This document shows positions 40,770 to 64,000 of a DNA stretch of 64,000 nucleotides, in pieces. The DNA is taken from assembly GCA_003116975.1 (NCBI GenBank), contig BGKB01000041.1, positions 372,001 through 436,000 of the forward strand, given 5' to 3'. Under the pieces are notes generated by a model. It searched no databases. It saw nothing but the letters and a program-made list of their open reading frames with translations, and had not been told where the DNA came from. The translations under genes and the position numbers were made by a program. The stretch's first letter is position 1; each line of letters starts with the position of its first letter. The DNA is from Aurantiochytrium sp. KH105. Taxonomy: Eukaryota; Sar; Bigyra; Thraustochytrida; Thraustochytriidae.

Positions 40770-42581
40770 ATGAGTGCTGCCGCCGCGGGCCTCTCTGGCC
40801 CGGCGTGCGCCGCGGGCCGCTGGCTTGCGATCGGGCGCCGGAATGGACTCGCTCTCGCGCGAAGTCGAACCCAAGGCGCCTCGTCGTCTCTGCCGCTGCC
40901 ACAACGCCTGCGGGCGCGGCGTCAAGGGTCTCTCCTGCGGGCGCAAGCTGCGTTGGCGGTAGCCTTGGACTTGCCCTGCGTGTGGCAGAGCGCCTATTCT
41001 TCGCGCCAGATGAATACGGATGTGCGCAGTGGCGGCCCAGTCGTGCGCACAGAGGCACAACCTCCGCAAAGAGAACTCGAGGACGAAGTGGACCTTGACG
41101 CCATGGACAAGGCCCAGCGCCACGTCACGTGGCTCGGACTCTATAGCAACGTCTTACTGGCCGGCACCAAGGGCTTCATTGGCTTCTCGAGTGGATCGAT
41201 GTCCCTTATCGCAGACGCCATGCATTCTGGATCCGACCTCTGCGGCGATTTCGTTGCGCTTGCCGCCATCACGCTCAGCAAAAGACCAGCTGACAAGCTC
41301 CATCCCTATGGATACGGACACTATGAATCCTTGGGGACGCTGCTCGTGTCAACATTGCTCGTTGGTGGCGGCGCGGGCATTGGGTGGCATTCGCTGAACC
41401 AGCTTCTGGTGGTCAGCGCCACGGAGGCGACAATGGTGCGCCACATTCCCGCAGCGCTCATCGTGATTGGCGCCTCAATCGCCGTCAAGGAATGGCTCTA
41501 CAGAATCACCGTGAAGGTTGGTCAGGAGACACATAGTCCTGTGCTTGTCGCAAATGCTTGGCACCACCGTACAGATGCACTCTCTTCCATTCTTTCGCTC
41601 ATTGGCGTCGGCGGCGCATGGTTTGGCTGGTACATGCTTGACCCTGTCGCAGGTCTCCTCGTCAGCGGAATGGTGCTCAAGGCTGGCGTGGAAATTGGCT
41701 GGGATGCCTGTCAGGACCTCACGGATCGACGGCGAGAGTCAGATTACGATGTCATTGGTGGGGTGTACAAGGTTGTTGAGAATCTTGCTCTCCAGCCCAC
41801 CTCTGCCGTCGTTGATGCTCACGACGTGCGCGTGCGTAGACTCGGGCACTATCTTCTTCTTGATTTACACCTTCGTGTCGAACCAAGACTCAGTGTGAGC
41901 GGCGGCTACGTTGAGAGCAATCGCGTGAAGCGACATATTTACAAGGCATATCCGCGCATCAGTGAAGTGATGATTCACGTTCAGGCGCACCCGCGCCGCA
42001 GCGCAATGGAGCAAAGTGGAGACATGGTCGATGCTTCCTTTGTTGCGTCAGGTTCGCCCCAGACGCTTGTCCAAGTTTCGCCCGAGCCTGCACAAACTCA
42101 ACGTGAAGACCAGCACGTTCAACAAGAAAAGCTGATCATGAACGCAACAAACGACGTTGAGCCGAAAAAGGTCCGTCGAGAGCTATCCTTGCATGCGGAG
42201 AGCCGCCAACCCATGGCGCCGCGGCGGTCTTTCACGCCCATTCCCAATCAGTTTGCCAAGAATGTTCGATCCCATTTGGAAATCGAAGGGGACGTCCGCG
42301 CTGCCGTGATGGAGGCTGCGGCGCGTGACCCCGTCATCAATGCGCTCTCGCATTGCCAGATCTACTACGACGTTGCGGAGTCTCGCGTTTTTGTGGAGAT
42401 CAATCTCGTCATGGAGAAAACGGTGACGCTCTTGCGTGCCGACGAAGCCGCGCAAGTCGCCAGAGAAGCCGTGCTGAGTATCCCTGATGTCTACTCGGTC
42501 GACGCTCACGTAGAGCTCGGAGATGAAGACACTGATGATGCGGAAACCACCGAACCTGAAAAGCAGCCTGCTCGTGCTTGA
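40770..42581 (+). CDS. Mitochondrial-type CDF metal transporter (MMT/MTP-like) with two C-terminal domains
   Basis: A protein of 603 residues. ATG 40770 opens an Ala/Arg/Ser-rich presequence (MSAAAAGLSGPACAAGR) typical of mitochondrial import. The CDF membrane domain covers about 115-330. The TM2 site DAMHSGSDLCGD and TM5 site AWHHRTDALSS both give HxxxD, and TM3 has KRPADKLHPYGYGHYESLG. The best match is the FieF/MMT1 branch that handles iron or zinc in mitochondria. After the usual cytoplasmic ferredoxin-like domain (LDLHLRVEPRLSVSGGYVES to VMIHVQAHP), a 130-residue linker leads to a second similar fold (FVEINLVMEKTVTLLRADEA to VYSVDAHVELG). That duplication makes it longer than normal CDFs (300-450). 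Confidence 0.88.
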   Translation: MSAAAAGLSGPACAAGRWLAIGRRNGLALARSRTQGASSSLPLPQRLRARRQGSLLRAQAALAVALDLPCVWQSAYSSRQMNTDVRSGGPVVRTEAQPPQRELEDEVDLDAMDKAQRHVTWLGLYSNVLLAGTKGFIGFSSGSMSLIADAMHSGSDLCGDFVALAAITLSKRPADKLHPYGYGHYESLGTLLVSTLLVGGGAGIGWHSLNQLLVVSATEATMVRHIPAALIVIGASIAVKEWLYRITVKVGQETHSPVLVANAWHHRTDALSSILSLIGVGGAWFGWYMLDPVAGLLVSGMVLKAGVEIGWDACQDLTDRRRESDYDVIGGVYKVVENLALQPTSAVVDAHDVRVRRLGHYLLLDLHLRVEPRLSVSGGYVESNRVKRHIYKAYPRISEVMIHVQAHPRRSAMEQSGDMVDASFVASGSPQTLVQVSPEPAQTQREDQHVQQEKLIMNATNDVEPKKVRRELSLHAESRQPMAPRRSFTPIPNQFAKNVRSHLEIEGDVRAAVMEAAARDPVINALSHCQIYYDVAESRVFVEINLVMEKTVTLLRADEAAQVAREAVLSIPDVYSVDAHVELGDEDTDDAETTEPEKQPARA

Positions 42582-59464: not shown

Positions 59465-60921
59465 TTACTTTTTCCTCTTGCGCTTGCCGCCCTGCACCAC
59501 CGGCGTCGGATAGACGGGGCGCTTGGAAAAGGGAACGTTGACAGGATTGCCGCTGAGTTGCAAGCGCAAGAGTTTTTGCGCCATAAACACCGACGCCGTC
59601 TCGAGCTCGCGCAAGAGCGTCTGGAACGGGTCAATGGCGATCTTGGTCGCATCCTGACGGGTGCTTAACGCACTAGCCTTGACGTCAACCATGAGGGAGA
59701 GCTCTGCTTCGAGTTCATTGTACGTGTAGTCGATGAGCTGGCCATGGTTTTTGGAGTGAAATTCGGACTCGCGCGCAGTCACCGAGTACTTGGTGCCATC
59801 CGTGCGCTCCATTTGAATAGCCAAGCGACCCGCGATAAGATTGATATCGATGGGCTTTTCGATGGCACGATACACCTGAGGTGGCGTAATAACACCCGAG
59901 CAGCACTTTACGTGCATGACGGCGACACGGCCACGTCCTGTTGCATAGTGTGCCATATAGTTGCGCAGCGACTGCGTTTCTGGCTCGGAAAAGTTCGCTG
60001 GGCCCTGGAAGCTGTCAAGCTTGGCGCCCTCCTTGAGACGCTTTCCAAAGCCCCACGAGACACCGTCGAGACCCCAGTTCGTCTCGAGATCAACGCCGTG
60101 AGAGCCAGACACAGCGACACGGCGGTTCTTGCACCAGGACCGGGCGCTGCTTGGCGTATGCAGGTGGGAATAATCAAAGCCACCCGGATTTGCAATCATC
60201 ACAAAATGGAACTGCACTGCATCAAGCAAGGCCTTGGTGGTCTCACCACGGCCCTTGATGGCCATGGCAGTGTGTAGGATTCCCATTGATGAAGTCCACT
60301 CGCAACCCTTGAGCGTGCCAATGACAAAGACATGCTTGCCACGACGTCCGTTACCAACACGGAGACTCATGATGGCTTGAGGTTTCTTCTTGTCCGCCGT
60401 GTCACCAATCTCCACCAGATCTACATCCTTGTAGTGATCTGCGAGCTCCTTGGCAACAGCAAGAATCTCACGCTGAGAGCGGTAACGAAGAAAGACGCTC
60501 TTGTGCTTCCCGTACACAGGGTCGCGCGCCGTAAGGCGGTTGTAGTCTCCAGGAGGAAGAATGTCTCGAAGGGCCTTTTTCGAAAGGGCTTCAAGGTCGG
60601 CAGCATCCGAGGGAACCTCTTTGAGACTCTCGCGGAGGGCAGCAAGGCGTGCAGCTTCGACCTCCTCTGGCCGCAAGGGCTCCGGCTTGATTCGCTTGAC
60701 ACCTTCCTGGATAAGTTCTCCGAGACGGTCGTCATCTTCCGAGCTCGTTTCAAATGAAAAGTCGCCGCTGTCAAAGTCTTCCAAGTCTTTGAAGAGATCC
60801 TCGACGTCGTCATCAGCTTGCGCCGAGCCCCCGCCAAGACTCGAAAATAGGTTTTCGAGCTCAGAGTCGGTCTCGGTGGGCTCAGATTCTTCTGAGGTCG
60901 TCTCGTCTCCGCCCTCTTCTC

Positions 60922-60958
<37 letters not shown>

Positions 60959-61837
60959 TTCTTCGGCCTCGCCCTCTTCTCCTTCGTCAGCAGTGTTTTC
61001 CTCCTCAACCTCGCCGCCCTCTTCTTCTTCTGTCTCTTCTTCTTCTCCGTTGTCGGTCTCGTCTCCAGCGAAGATATCGCCAATGGTTTCGTCATTCGAA
61101 ACTCCTTCAACGTCATCGCTGCTATCATCAACCGTGATGTCGGTTGGAGAGTCGACGCTGTCGACATGTTCCCGATCGCCATCGAATCCGGTACTTTCGA
61201 CATTCTGTCTTTCTGGCTCAACATAGGCTCCGTGGGTGTTGGCTGACTTGTCGCGCGCGGAGAAGTCGCCTCGCAGGCTGCCCTCGCTTGACGCATCCAC
61301 GCGCATGAGCGTGCAGGTGGAGGCTTGGAAGCGGAATGCAGGGCAACTTTGCGCAGCGCACGTGTCGCAGCATTCTTGCTCGGACGCAGCGCTGGTCTGT
61401 GCGATCACAGCGCCGCTCTGCAGTGGTCTTGACAAGTCGGCAAAGGCGGTCTGGGACTCTACAAAGTACAGCGCTGCAGTGCCACAGAGCTCGTGTTTAG
61501 GATTCCGCAGCCGCAGTTCGCCGAGATGGTCGAGCGAGATGCCAGCGCTCACCCTTCCGCCCTGGTCGCCAGGCTTGATGCCGACGAGCGGCCGCATCGT
61601 CTCGCTCGCAGCGGACTCCTCGGTGGTCGTCGTCGCGCCGCCAAAGATGAGCTCTGGGAACATGTGCGAGCACAGCATCAGGATGCCCACCAGCGCAAGT
61701 CCGAGGCCGATCTTGAGCTTCCGCGTGGCCTGCGCGCTCCTGCGGTGCTCCTTGCTGTTCTCCGCCTGCAGCCTGCGCCAGTCGTCCTCGCGTCGCCGCG
61801 CCGAGCGGCCGCCGCCGCGCACGTTGCGCATGAGCAT
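59465..61837 (-). CDS. M14 carboxypeptidase-like pseudoenzyme, type II membrane protein
   Basis: A protein of 790 residues. A basic cytosolic head is followed by a signal anchor (KIGLGLALVGILMLCSHMF, about 40-60). A Cys-rich PAN/apple-like module follows (SEQECCDTCAAQSCPAFRFQ, then STCTLMRV), then some 230 residues of Glu/Asp-rich low complexity, including poly-Glu. The M14 fold starts at about residue 445. The metal ligands of the divergent partner's HxxE...H site are changed: HGREW becomes KGCEW (Lys510, Glu513) and DVHCCSG becomes HVKCCSG (Lys644). The substrate-binding LNRNWG is LETNWG, and the catalytic Glu of VETRG appears as Asp718 in LMVDVKA. It is probably inactive. ATG 61837 was chosen; the open frame goes on to a TTG at 62086. 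A plain peptidase annotation would be misleading. Confidence 0.87.
60912..60966. repeat. (CTT)n repeat encoding poly-Glu
   Basis: CTT/CCT triplets inside the M14-like gene, read as GAA/GAG codons on its strand, giving a run of Glu residues. Confidence 0.85.
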
Positions 61838-62493
61838 CTTGCCGCGGTCTCGCGCCGGTCCTCGGCGCCTCGCCGCTCCCCGTTCGGCCGACCGCGCGGG
61901 GTCCGGACGCCGCGCGCGCGCTCGAGCGGACCGCCTCGCGGGCGGAGCTTGCCCTCTCGGCGGCCTCGCGCGCCCGCGAGCCGCGTGGTTGCGGACTTGC
62001 TCGCTGTCGCTCTGCTCGCCCTGCTCGCTCTGCTTGGTCGCCGTGGCGTGCCGGCTACTCGCGCTTTGCGACCTCTGCGGGCGCAAACCGCATTCCGCAC
62101 TTGCCGCCGCGCCGCAAGTGCGCTATGCGCGGCGCGCGAAGGGCGCTTTCGCGCGCGGCAAGTCGGGAATGCGCGGCGCCAAGTGCGGCTAACGGGCAGG
62201 CAGTCGGCTCTCACAGGAGAAGAAGCGGGGAAAAAAGGAGAAAAAGGAGGGGAAGAAGGAGGCCCGAGCAGGCAGCAGCGACCAAGCTTTCCTGCCTCGC
62301 TCATTTTGGCAAAGACGGATCGCCCGCGCTCGCGACGGCGGGGAGCCGGGTCGGCCTGTCCGTCTGCTTAACTGCTTGCTCGCCTGCTTGCGTGTCTCGG
62401 ATTTTGTGGTTTCTGGACGGCGAGGGAAAGGCAAGGTGAGACCTTGCGAGAGTCTTGCAATTTTGCTACGTGAGCTGGAGAGCTTTGCTCACC
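61838..62493. promoter_or_regulatory. Bidirectional promoter of the M14 gene pair
   Basis: About 655 bp between the divergent starts. It contains the 27-bp element at 62065-62091 (one base different from 8202-8228). Next to it lie CAAGTG cores at 62098 (-), 62115 (+) and 62180 (+) and CAAGTC at 62159 (+). A purine-rich tract (62218-62270) follows. Confidence 0.6.
62065..62091. promoter_or_regulatory. 27-bp element shared with the RPL17/SEH1 promoter
   Basis: The element begins TTTGCGACC and ends CTGCGGGCGCAAACCGC, with one variable base (T here, G at 8211) between. TTTGCG and CGCAAA within it are reverse complements separated by about 11 bp. The other copy is at 8202-8228. Confidence 0.6.
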
Positions 62494-64000
62494 ATGGCGC
62501 GCCTGCTGAGAACCGCGGTGACGGCCCTGGTGGTGCTCGTGGTGGTCATGCTGGGCAACGAACCAACGCCGGTGACAGCAGCGTCATCGCGGCGCAGGAA
62601 GAGCTCTAGCTCGGGCATAGAACTGTCGGACGCCTTTTTCCAGCACTGGGCACCCTTCAAGGACTTGGAAAAATTCATGGACGCCTTGTACAAGCAGTAT
62701 AAATCGACGAAATTGATCTCCATGAGCACCATTGGCAAGAGCGCAGAGAAGCGGAAGCTGACACTCATGAGTATTGGCACTTCGGAGCCCAAATATCAGC
62801 TTATGCTCATGGCGACCATGCACGGCCGCGAGTGGATCACGCCATACGCTACGCTGTACACGGCGTGGCAGCTCCTCAAGTGTCACGAAGAGGGCGAGGA
62901 GCGCTGCGTTGACTTGCTCGCGAATACGCAAGTGCACTTCCTGCCCGTGCTTAACCCTGACGGCTACGAATTCACCCGCATCCCAGCATCGAAAAATGAG
63001 CAGGCGCGGCAATGGCGCAAAAACCGACGCAATCTGTGCTCCAAGTGCGAGCGAGGCGTGCATGGTATCGACCTCAACCGCAATTGGGGCGTCAAGGACC
63101 GGTCGTGGGGTTTCGGCAATGACAAAGCAACCACCGAGGTGTACCAGGGGAAGCATCCTTTCAGCGAGCCTGAAATCAAGGCCGTCCGGGACTGGCTGCT
63201 GCACAAGGGGCGCTCCAAGCACATTAACGCCTTTTTTGACGTACACTGCTGTTCTGGGGCTATTTTGCCCCCCTTTTACTACAATGGCGAATCTGAGCTC
63301 TTGCAATCGCAGAATCTTGACAACTGCAAGGCGATTGCCACCTCGATGAAGGCCGTGAACAAGATTCGCTACAAGTGGCGTCCGCGCGAAAAGGAGTTTT
63401 CGGCGTCAAATACGGGCATTGGCGCCGACTGGATTTACGCGGAGGCGGGCATCCCGAACGTCTTCATTGTCGAAACGCGCGGAAACAAGACCAAACTTCT
63501 CAAGGACATCTTTGAAGTCCCCGAGGACCAAATCATCCCCATCGCTAAAGAGCTCCAAGCCGGCTTTTGGAAAATGGCCGAGCTCTTTGCCAACAAACAA
63601 GCTGTCGTTCTCTCTGCTATCTCAGACACCGTCGGGGAGTCAGTTGAAAGTCTTTCACCGTCCGAGGCTGCAAGTCTTTTGGCTGCGACAGATTCTCTGA
63701 TTGGCTCGAGCAGCCCTGGTGGCGGTTCAAAGGGCGCTTCTGTTGATGCCATCGCAACGGCGCTCAGAGGCTCAAGCGTCGCTGCTGACGAAACGGACGC
63801 GCAGGATAATGTTGAACCTGGCGACATGAGTCTCGACGATCTTCTTGCAGCCTTTGATGACCCGTCCATCAAGTCCAAGGCCAAGGCCAAGTCGACGCCA
63901 GCACCAGAGCCAAAGCCTGAGTCTAAGCCACCTCTTCCGGCCGCTGAAACGAAGACGAACGCGGACGATACCCAGATCGACATGGACGACACAAGTTCAA
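62494..64000 (+). CDS. Secreted zinc carboxypeptidase, M14 family (3' partial)
   Basis: The frame is open from ATG 62494 (context CACCATGG) to the right edge, at least 502 codons. A signal peptide (residues 1-30, MARLLRTAVTALVVLVVVML) is followed directly by the mature peptidase domain, without the usual propeptide. The zinc ligands are His110 and Glu113 (MHGREW) and His251 (FDVHCCSG). LNRNWG supplies the Asn-Arg substrate clamp, and the catalytic Glu327 lies in FIVETRG. The C-terminal extension from about 365 is Ser/Ala-rich and then acidic and Lys/Pro-rich, and is cut by the window end. Carboxypeptidase A/B preference cannot be told. It is head to head with its degenerate paralogue, with 655 bp between starts. 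Confidence 0.93.
   Translation, partial: MARLLRTAVTALVVLVVVMLGNEPTPVTAASSRRRKSSSSGIELSDAFFQHWAPFKDLEKFMDALYKQYKSTKLISMSTIGKSAEKRKLTLMSIGTSEPKYQLMLMATMHGREWITPYATLYTAWQLLKCHEEGEERCVDLLANTQVHFLPVLNPDGYEFTRIPASKNEQARQWRKNRRNLCSKCERGVHGIDLNRNWGVKDRSWGFGNDKATTEVYQGKHPFSEPEIKAVRDWLLHKGRSKHINAFFDVHCCSGAILPPFYYNGESELLQSQNLDNCKAIATSMKAVNKIRYKWRPREKEFSASNTGIGADWIYAEAGIPNVFIVETRGNKTKLLKDIFEVPEDQIIPIAKELQAGFWKMAELFANKQAVVLSAISDTVGESVESLSPSEAASLLAATDSLIGSSSPGGGSKGASVDAIATALRGSSVAADETDAQDNVEPGDMSLDDLLAAFDDPSIKSKAKAKSTPAPEPKPESKPPLPAAETKTNADDTQIDMDDTSS

Follow-up and report, generated by a model that had tools for sequence, protein, structure and literature searches.

A conserved M14A pseudopeptidase with lysine at both zinc-histidine positions, predicted to be membrane-anchored, lies head-to-head with an active-type paralogue in Aurantiochytrium sp. 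KH105

Five pseudopeptidases of peptidase family M14, AEBP1, CPXM1, CPXM2, CPD-III and Ecm14, are tabulated in a 2024 review (PMC11266112), and H69 is kept in all five. According to the same table, AEBP1, CPXM1 and CPXM2 also keep E72, with N196 in AEBP1, Q196 in CPXM2 and H196 in CPXM1, and the site of CPD-III reads H69, A72, D196, Q127 and Y270. Ecm14, an ascomycete protein with a cleavable prodomain, keeps H69, E72 and H196 and has D144, H145 and K270 (PMC7706225, PMC11266112), and half of its basidiomycete sister group is described as carrying R127Y, H196R and E270H (PMC7706225). The literature searched, as far as its accessible parts go, yielded neither a head-to-head pair of active and dead M14 genes nor an M14 protein with lysine in place of both zinc histidines.

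The window analysed here, a stretch of 64,000 nucleotides, contains such a pair at its right-hand end, referred to below as the left and right genes. Site residues are given in CPA numbering, and positions 71, 124, 197, 198 and 248 are assigned their customary roles. The roles of positions 69, 72, 127, 144, 145, 196 and 270 follow the accounts in PMC11266112 (Table 2) or PMC7706225. The alignment was anchored by taking R127 as the first R of W-R-K and the Y248 column as the one preceding a D-W pair. The features are:

59465..61837, minus strand: left gene, M14A pseudopeptidase, 790 aa; a single unbroken ORF, span including the stop codon
61643..61711, minus strand: left TM-like segment, residues 43-65, preceded by a strongly basic N-terminus (Kyte-Doolittle scan)
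61271..61411, minus strand: left PAN-like module, residues 143-189 (PF00024 E 0.003, below threshold)
60710..61219, minus strand: left acidic spacer, residues 207-376
59684..60463, minus strand: left pseudo-M14 domain, Pfam-matched part, residues 459-718 (PF00246)
60299..60310, minus strand: K69 (residue 510), G70, C71 (512) and E72 (513), replacing H-x-R-E (alignment)
60131..60133, minus strand: C127 (residue 569), replacing R127 (alignment)
60080..60085, minus strand: E144-T145 (residues 585-586), replacing N-R (alignment)
59900..59908, minus strand: K196-C197-C198 (residues 644-646), replacing H-C-C of the active-type paralogues (alignment)
59684..59686, minus strand: D270 (residue 718), replacing E270 (alignment)
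59468..59491, minus strand: left basic C-terminal tail GGKRKRKK (ORF translation)
61838..62493, no strand: divergent intergenic region, 656 bp (copy-to-copy comparison)
62494..64000, continuing to 65073 past the window, plus strand: right gene, active-type M14A, 859 aa (PF00246 E 2.5e-55)
62668..63558, plus strand: right M14 domain, Pfam-matched residues 59-355 (PF00246; AF2)
62821-62823, 62830-62832 and 63016-63018, plus strand: right H69, E72 and R127, zinc ligands and clamp (alignment)
63076-63081, 63244-63246 and 63472-63474, plus strand: right N144-R145, H196 and E270 (alignment)

The left ORF, which runs from the start M at 61837 to a stop ending at 59465, had been proposed to encode an M14 relative, and both profile and fold place its product in peptidase family M14 with the A/B-type fold. 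PF00246 matches it with E 3.2e-25 and 89.7 bits (cut-off 21.6), and the best Foldseek matches of the AF2 model of residues 425-775 (pLDDT 81.8, pTM 0.88) are carboxypeptidases. Among the 50 matches listed, mature CPA and CPB chains reach a TM score by target of 0.79-0.85 and zymogens and carboxypeptidase T lie below that range; the solved chains matched are of CPA, CPB and CPT types, with the A/B types nearest. The Pfam scan found one M14 stretch in the left protein and one in the scanned part of the right protein.

The alignment confirms that both zinc histidines have been replaced by lysine (KGCEW, HVKCC), Asn-Arg by Glu-Thr and Glu270, the general base, by Asp, and it reveals two losses which the original prediction had missed, R71C and R127C. 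Every residue of the substrate clamp (R71, R127, N144, R145) is consequently replaced, and E72 and R124 are the only catalytic or clamp residues to survive. The residues that mark an active M14 enzyme (H69-E72-H196, R127, N144-R145, E270) form a complete set in the right protein and a broken one in the left, which is, by sequence, catalytically dead. H69, E72, N144, R145 and H196 are intact in 49/49 prokaryotic M14 rows, a sample picked for likeness to the right protein and therefore favouring intact sites; R124 is present in 20 of the 49. These rows, which were used for the residue table and the models, come from 80 kept out of at least 350 confirmed relatives in a prokaryote scan whose patterns permitted K69, C71, E144 and T145 and extended to positions other than 196; the remaining 31 were dropped as short matches or as members of a large set of similar Sulfurovum-type rows.

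The right protein (AF2 model: pLDDT 88.0, pTM 0.91) had been credited with every catalytic residue, which holds for H69, R71, E72, R124, R127, N144, R145, H196 and E270 but not for Tyr248, which is unrecognisable, its column containing A with F and S adjoining. The gene continues beyond the window edge to C41:437073 (window position 65073), where it encodes an acidic spacer, a C-terminal hydrophobic TM-like segment and a basic tail, an arrangement that lends no support to the description of its product as secreted. Reading topology from hydropathy and charge, both proteins are probably membrane-anchored, the TM-like segment of the left protein being a predicted type II anchor whose orientation is suggested by charge. 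The supposed gain of this anchor by the left gene is not supported, since each of the six full-length proteins of the local subfamily, including four of active type, carries a TM-like segment away from its M14 domain. The long acidic spacer was found as predicted. The PAN-like module is a less certain matter: it contains several close-set cysteines, its protein sequence is unchanged between gene copies, and its scores are below the cut-offs (PF00024 17.8 bits against 21.4; PF14295 12 against 27). PAN_1 is common across the KH105 genome, and the module's own two copies were the only relatives found for it there at E below 0.2.

The likeness to AEBP1 and CPXM that had been proposed for the left protein does not extend to the details, since those proteins keep H69 (PMC11266112) and have another architecture. 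AEBP1, CPXM1 and CPXM2 resemble it in combining a conserved dead M14 domain with a binding module and in having extracellular roles, but they belong to the regulatory group and carry an N-terminal discoidin domain, whereas the left protein is nearest to the A/B types, has K69 and K196, combines a PAN-like module with a TM-like segment, and gave no discoidin match in a Pfam scan at E 1; the discoidin domain, regulatory-type M14 domain and H69 that characterize the group are all missing from it. CPD-III is likewise a dead M14 domain made with active ones in a membrane protein, with almost every site residue substituted and T145 in common, but it shares one polypeptide with the active domains and is built of carboxypeptidase/transthyretin units (PMC11266112), several of which per chain define the CPD type and are not found in the left protein. 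Ecm14 is also a conserved A/B-type dead M14 protein with a clamp altered at 144-145, but its combination of D144 and K270 with an intact zinc triad (PMC7706225, PMC11266112) is replaced here by E144, D270, K69 and K196. Its basidiomycete sister group shares the change of one zinc histidine to a basic residue and the loss of R127, but H196 is the sole zinc ligand reported as changed, and the relevant portion of PMC7706225 mentions neither an anchor nor a PAN module. The modular stramenopile proteases of Aphanomyces euteiches join a PAN module to a peptidase domain as the left protein does, but the one described in PMC10084794 is an active, secreted subtilase with a C-terminal PAN. Because H69 survives in all five of the tabulated pseudopeptidases, the replacement of both zinc histidines by lysine represents a new variant.

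The full-length active-type members of the local subfamily are the right protein, C2, C27 and C161, and C249 is an active-looking fragment. C161 has a C-terminal TM-like segment and an ORF without a signal-like N-terminus, which means that some members may not be ectoenzymes. The genome also encodes a second dead M14 protein (C104/C113), with substitutions different from those of the left protein, an N-terminal TM-like segment, acidic stretches and a fused GGCT-like domain that lacks the catalytic Glu. In the own-genome search its contigs gave no further M14 match, which indicates that a dead M14 here needs no active neighbour. A further GGCT-like protein in the genome has a TM-like stretch and also lacks the catalytic Glu. 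A tree of 22 of the 49 prokaryotic rows and seven own sequences (partial locus C249 left out), which was flagged for long branches and for the unusual composition of several rows, among them those of right and C104, groups the left protein with the right protein and C161 with support 82/56. The AU test rejects neither left with right (p 0.40) nor left with the second dead gene (p 0.41). One and two origins of the dead state are therefore indistinguishable, and a sister relation of left and right was not accepted as proven.

Another contig, C16, carries the head-to-head pair as well; its frames are open and its left copy, of 786 aa, has the same site residues, lysines included, which makes sequencing error unlikely. 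Copy-to-copy mismatches amount to 5.2% in the 656-bp gap; the two coding sequences differ by 2.5% and 2.6%, the convergent gap by 6.6% and the 427 bp after the right gene by 4.2%. The 656-bp gap is less conserved than the coding DNA and its length is within the ordinary range for the KH105 genome, so the proposal that a single promoter drives both genes simultaneously gains no support from it. No sigma-70-type site was found in the gap, a result without meaning for a eukaryote. The right protein is the best own-genome match of the left (118.8 bits; next locus 57.6), with an aligned identity of 26.5% compared to 24.3% for C2, the next, and about 0.013 adjacent pairs would be expected by chance among 13 M14 loci at an assumed gene density; the two genes probably derive from an old local inverted duplication. 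By eye, a PPG segment precedes the M14 domain in the left protein and C2 and is absent from the right protein, which weakens a simple origin of the left gene as a copy of the right. A single scan of viral contigs with the left protein alone found no relatives. A viral-contig search with M14 patterns gave 35 matching stretches, of which four encoded a relative; on visual inspection these four resemble structural proteins of phages that end in an M14-like part.

The two copies of the left gene are close (dS about 0.09), and over the span between them its M14 domain has accumulated 24 synonymous and no non-synonymous differences in 321 codons, a pattern with a neutral probability of about 1e-15. 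Residues 66-210, the PAN region, show 5 synonymous and 0 non-synonymous differences, the TM segment and N-terminus are strongly constrained, and residues 211-420, the fast-changing acidic spacer, show 11.5 and 13.5 (domain versus spacer p 3e-5, taking the spacer differences as 12 and 13). Whole-gene dN/dS is 0.089. The M14 domain of the right gene, with 18 synonymous differences and 1 non-synonymous, does not differ from that of the left (p 0.44). The prediction that the left gene is selected rather than decaying is thereby upheld, and over the span between the copies it is, as far as the coding sequence tells, a conserved dead gene and not a pseudogene. In the tree its domain has a branch length of 2.33 compared to 0.8 for the right, which points to fast change at some earlier time.

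These counts leave almost no probability to a pseudogene, or a recently dead gene that decays slowly: such a gene might retain as little of its site as E72 and R124, but the frame is open in both copies and 0/24 domain differences are non-synonymous, which rules this reading out over the span between them. The decoy role put forward in the original prediction, in which the dead domain binds the substrates of the right protein and protects or concentrates them, is highly improbable. The left protein does have the fold of carboxypeptidases by Foldseek and keeps E72 and R124, but a substrate decoy would have lost catalysis and kept its substrate-binding residues, and here R71, R127, N144 and R145 are all replaced, R124 alone is kept for substrate (a residue found in 20/49 prokaryotic rows only), the named pocket residues shift from positive to neutral, and the right protein is itself predicted to be membrane-anchored. 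Repurposing as a binding module accounts for the left protein better than a decoy function towards its neighbour does.

It is rather unlikely, although worth weighing, that the two proteins are co-expressed as a membrane heteromer in which the dead subunit presents substrate or controls activity. The paralogues are adjacent and head-to-head in both copies, where chance would hardly place them, but local duplication by itself accounts for that, and the gap between them is neither unusual in length nor specially conserved. Both have long acidic spacers, which were not found at the threshold used in the three other full-length active-type members, but the second dead M14 protein is likewise acidic and has no M14 neighbour. 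The M14A enzymes described are for the most part monomers. Consistent with a partner role, the M14 match of the right protein begins at residue 59, leaving no room for the usual propeptide, and CPD-III has been suggested, in the account given in PMC11266112, to present substrates to active domains. Somewhat more doubtful still is a pocket rebuilt to house a newly acquired metal, disulfide or redox centre. There are exactly four cysteines in the M14 domain, all at the old pocket positions 71, 127, 197 and 198, and its protein sequence is identical between copies; C71 and C127 are unique to the left protein among own-genome sequences, but C197-C198 is shared by the active-type paralogues and so is not specific, and the pattern was noticed after the fact. 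Zinc is presumably absent, but E72 and the four cysteines could bind a metal.

On balance we favour, with some reserve, the reading of the left protein as a membrane-held, probably metal-free M14A pseudopeptidase that serves as a displayed binding module. It would be held in the membrane by its N-terminal segment, with the PAN-like module, the acidic stalk and the dead carboxypeptidase fold facing away from the cytosol. The fold may be stable without zinc because the two lysines would supply positive charge beside the retained E72 and the substituted E144 and D270, so that the named pocket residues together carry no net charge. The PAN-like and pseudo-M14 domains would then be displayed for binding or as a scaffold, rather than serve as a decoy that takes up C-terminal substrates, and the right protein would be a separately anchored ectoenzyme beside it.

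The left protein has lost its zinc histidines and its clamp, yet its domain is as constrained between copies as that of its active-type neighbour. It offers a clean test of whether a metalloenzyme fold can persist for binding alone, with built-in positive charge replacing the metal, for which the genome supplies internal controls in the right protein, C2, C27, C161, the fragment C249 and the second dead M14 protein (C104/C113). A more speculative and rather unlikely extension is that the zinc site has been rebuilt, the lysine pair standing in for Zn2+ next to E72 and the four cysteines converging on the former substrate pocket to form a novel centre, be it structural, redox or metal-binding, and that a set of dead enzymes is displayed as surface recognition modules. 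If this were true, KH105 would have a wider set of membrane-displayed dead enzymes, which would include both GGCT-like proteins.

The two head-to-head genes are as follows.

61837-59465, minus strand: LEFT, the dead M14A gene, an uninterrupted ORF of 790 aa.
62494-65073 (the end lying beyond the window edge), plus strand: RIGHT, its active-type M14 neighbour, 859 aa.

Both exceed the Pfam PF00246 cut-off of 21.6 bits (LEFT 89.7, RIGHT 188.5). Their active sites were compared, in carboxypeptidase A (CPA) numbering, using an alignment of eight sequences from this genome, one of them partial, with 49 prokaryotic M14 rows, which were drawn from the best 80 of at least 350 relatives ranked by likeness to RIGHT and found with search patterns that permitted K69, C71, E144 and T145 and did not cover position 196. 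At positions 69, 71, 72, 124, 127, 144, 145, 196, 197, 198 and 270, LEFT reads K, C, E, R, C, E, T, K, C, C, D and RIGHT reads H, R, E, R, R, N, R, H, C, C, E. Within this RIGHT-like selection H69, E72, N144, R145 and H196 are retained in 49/49 prokaryotic rows, R71, R127 and E270 in 48/49 each (with one gap at 270), and R124 in just 20/49. RIGHT has the residues of an active M14 carboxypeptidase (zinc triad, R127, N144-R145, E270) and LEFT does not. The alignment confirms the originally predicted replacement in LEFT of both zinc histidines by lysine, of Asn-Arg by Glu-Thr and of Glu270 by Asp, and it adds two losses that had been overlooked, R71C and R127C. The claim that RIGHT keeps every catalytic residue holds for H69, R71, E72, R124, R127, N144, R145, H196 and E270, and does not hold for Tyr248, a dispensable residue, which is not recognisable.

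Selection on the two genes can be gauged from a second copy of the locus, since contig C16 carries the same head-to-head pair in a region collinear over 17 kb at 96.1% identity. The 76-Mb eukaryotic assembly, in which the window is G000:C41:372001-436000, contains 13 M14 loci, 12 of which are present on two contigs, with dS between copies of 0.04-0.10; the thirteenth, on contig C249, is a single fragment whose first residue is unread. The two-copy state suggests either very divergent haplotypes or a hybrid. Long uninterrupted ORFs, numerous PAN matches and a PUFA-synthase-type locus suggest a labyrinthulomycete-type protist; the locus scores 930 bits to TIGR02813, short of the 1010 cut-off, and the family also gives matches under that cut-off in 11/14 control genomes. 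Counted between copies as synonymous against non-synonymous, the differences in LEFT are 24 against 0 over the 321 codons of the M14 domain, 1 against 0 over the N-terminus with the transmembrane (TM) segment, 5 against 0 over the PAN-like region and 11.5 against 13.5 over the acidic spacer; in the M14 domain of RIGHT they are 18 against 1. The neutral probability of 0/24 in the LEFT domain is about 1e-15 if sites are taken as independent, and the domain differs from its own spacer at p 3e-5 (spacer counts rounded to 12 and 13). Its substitution pattern does not differ from that of the RIGHT domain (p 0.44), so that over the copy-to-copy span the dead domain is constrained as tightly as the active-type one; whole-gene dN/dS is 0.089 for LEFT and 0.106 for RIGHT, within a range of 0.07-0.29 over 12 gene pairs. 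The AF2 model of LEFT (alignment of 51 sequences) has pLDDT 81.8 and pTM 0.88, and the solved structures that match it best are carboxypeptidases A and B; the RIGHT model has pLDDT 88.0 and pTM 0.91. The 24 synonymous against 0 non-synonymous differences bear out the suggestion that LEFT is under selection instead of decaying, and it is near certain that LEFT is both dead and constrained. Its status as a conserved dead enzyme, an M14 pseudopeptidase, is well supported.

The proposed likeness to the vertebrate AEBP1 and CPXM pseudo-carboxypeptidases is not supported by Table 2 of PMC11266112, which gives H69 for each of AEBP1, CPXM1, CPXM2, CPD-III and Ecm14 and lysine at neither zinc histidine in any of them, unlike LEFT with K69 and K196. 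The nearest single change found is the H196R of basidiomycete relatives described in PMC7706225. In the portions of the literature searched, no match was described for a head-to-head active/dead M14 pair or for lysine at both zinc histidines. On IMG/VR viral contigs, M14-like domains with a DLNRN motif also occur, placed close to the end of long proteins that look like phage structural proteins.

The architecture of the proteins departs from the original prediction of a secreted enzyme beside a newly anchored relative. In RIGHT a signal-like N-terminus precedes the M14 domain; an acidic region (about 491-767) comes next, followed by a hydrophobic segment (831-849) and a basic tail, the last two of which point to an anchored protein. 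LEFT has a basic N-terminus and a hydrophobic segment (43-65), and the positive-inside rule predicts that everything after them lies outside. The two are thus predicted membrane proteins, with anchors at opposite ends. Because a TM-like segment lies outside the M14 domain in 6/6 full-length members of the subfamily (RIGHT, LEFT and the paralogues C2, C27, C161 and C104) as well as in the C249 fragment, anchoring is likely to be a rule of the subfamily and not a gain of LEFT. The C161 ORF has no signal-like N-terminus, so this member need not be an ectoenzyme. RIGHT, LEFT and C104 contain acidic stretches, with more than 35% Asp/Glu over 60 residues, which C2, C27 and C161 lack. Two members whose TM-like segment is N-terminal, LEFT and C27, finish in Lys/Arg runs (KRKRKK, window 59468-59491, and SKRKKT), which basic-specific carboxypeptidases might trim or acidic spacers might bind. 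PAN_1 is greatly expanded, with at least 141 matches in the genome at E 0.01 or better (150/200 candidates scored, counting both copies); oomycete PAN-subtilases are shown in PMC10084794. Two cation-efflux (PF01545) transporter genes lie in the window at 958-2739 and 40770-42581.

The adjacency of LEFT and RIGHT fits an old local inverted duplication. About 0.013 adjacent M14 pairs would be expected by chance (assumed gene density), and the best own-genome match of LEFT is RIGHT (118.8 bits, next locus 57.6; aligned identity 26.5%, against 24.3% for C2). In a tree of 22 prokaryotic rows and seven own sequences, the six full-length members that carry Cys-Cys directly behind residue 196 fall in a single clade (100/100), in which LEFT clusters with RIGHT and C161 at 82/56; branches are long for LEFT (2.33), C104 (2.42) and the intact C161 (2.26). 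The AU test rejects neither a LEFT+RIGHT nor a LEFT+C104 grouping, and the dead state may therefore have arisen once or twice. The divergent gap of 656 bp, proposed as a shared promoter, is the second shortest of six minus-to-plus gaps in the window (the others being 613, 762, 1896, 2131 and 3326 bp) among chosen non-overlapping ATG ORFs of at least 250 aa, overlapping alternatives being set aside; the four ORFs beside the two gaps closest in size count as ORF calls only, since Pfam matches one of them weakly and the other three not at all. Between copies the gap differs by 5.2%, compared with 2.5-2.6% for the two coding sequences, 6.6% for the convergent gap and 4.2% for the 427 bp after RIGHT, and hence shows no sign of special conservation in this comparison.

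The role of LEFT must be weighed against a second dead M14 and its only PF13772 counterpart in the genome.

G000:C104:169919-172504 and C113: second dead M14, two copies.
G000:C72:81585-81869 and C149:98865-99149: the sole further PF13772 match in the genome.

In the C104/C113 protein the TM-like segment is N-terminal and is accompanied by acidic stretches; the M14 domain has H69, S71, E72, M127, R144, E145, Q196 and S270, with motifs identical in both copies. The C-terminus carries a GGCT/AIG2-like domain (PF13772, E 1.6e-12), in which alignment to human GGCT puts Asn at the position of the catalytic Glu98. The copies differ by 16 synonymous and 2 non-synonymous changes in the M14 domain and by 8 and 1 in the GGCT domain, so that this gene too is under constraint between copies, and neither contig has a further M14 match. 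The C72/C149 protein, judged by eye, also lacks the catalytic Glu, reading LDKQKG, and a TM-like stretch precedes its domain.

On balance LEFT is probably a displayed, metal-free binding or scaffold module, of which we infer the binding role. The named pocket charges (K69, R124 and K196 against E72, E144 and D270) add up to zero; the lysines may thus stand in for the charge of Zn2+. With R71, R127, N144 and R145 lost, binding of substrate C-termini becomes less likely, and with it the substrate decoy once envisaged. A new Cys-based centre would draw on the fact that the LEFT M14 domain has exactly four cysteines, every one at a pocket position (71, 127, 197, 198). The pair at 197 and 198 is common to 7/7 local members (RIGHT, LEFT, C2, C27, C161, C104 and the C249 fragment), whereas most prokaryotic rows have S/T/A followed by Y or another residue; the site is a cis-peptide in CPA, so a vicinal disulfide is conceivable there. 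Such a centre is unlikely, and so, to a slightly lesser degree, is a partnership of LEFT with RIGHT of the kind suggested for CPD-III; LEFT as half of a regulatory pair is weakly supported. As far as sequence can indicate, predicted anchored dead enzymes recur in this genome with no active partner nearby, which speaks more for a general role as displayed modules than for a regulator dedicated to RIGHT.
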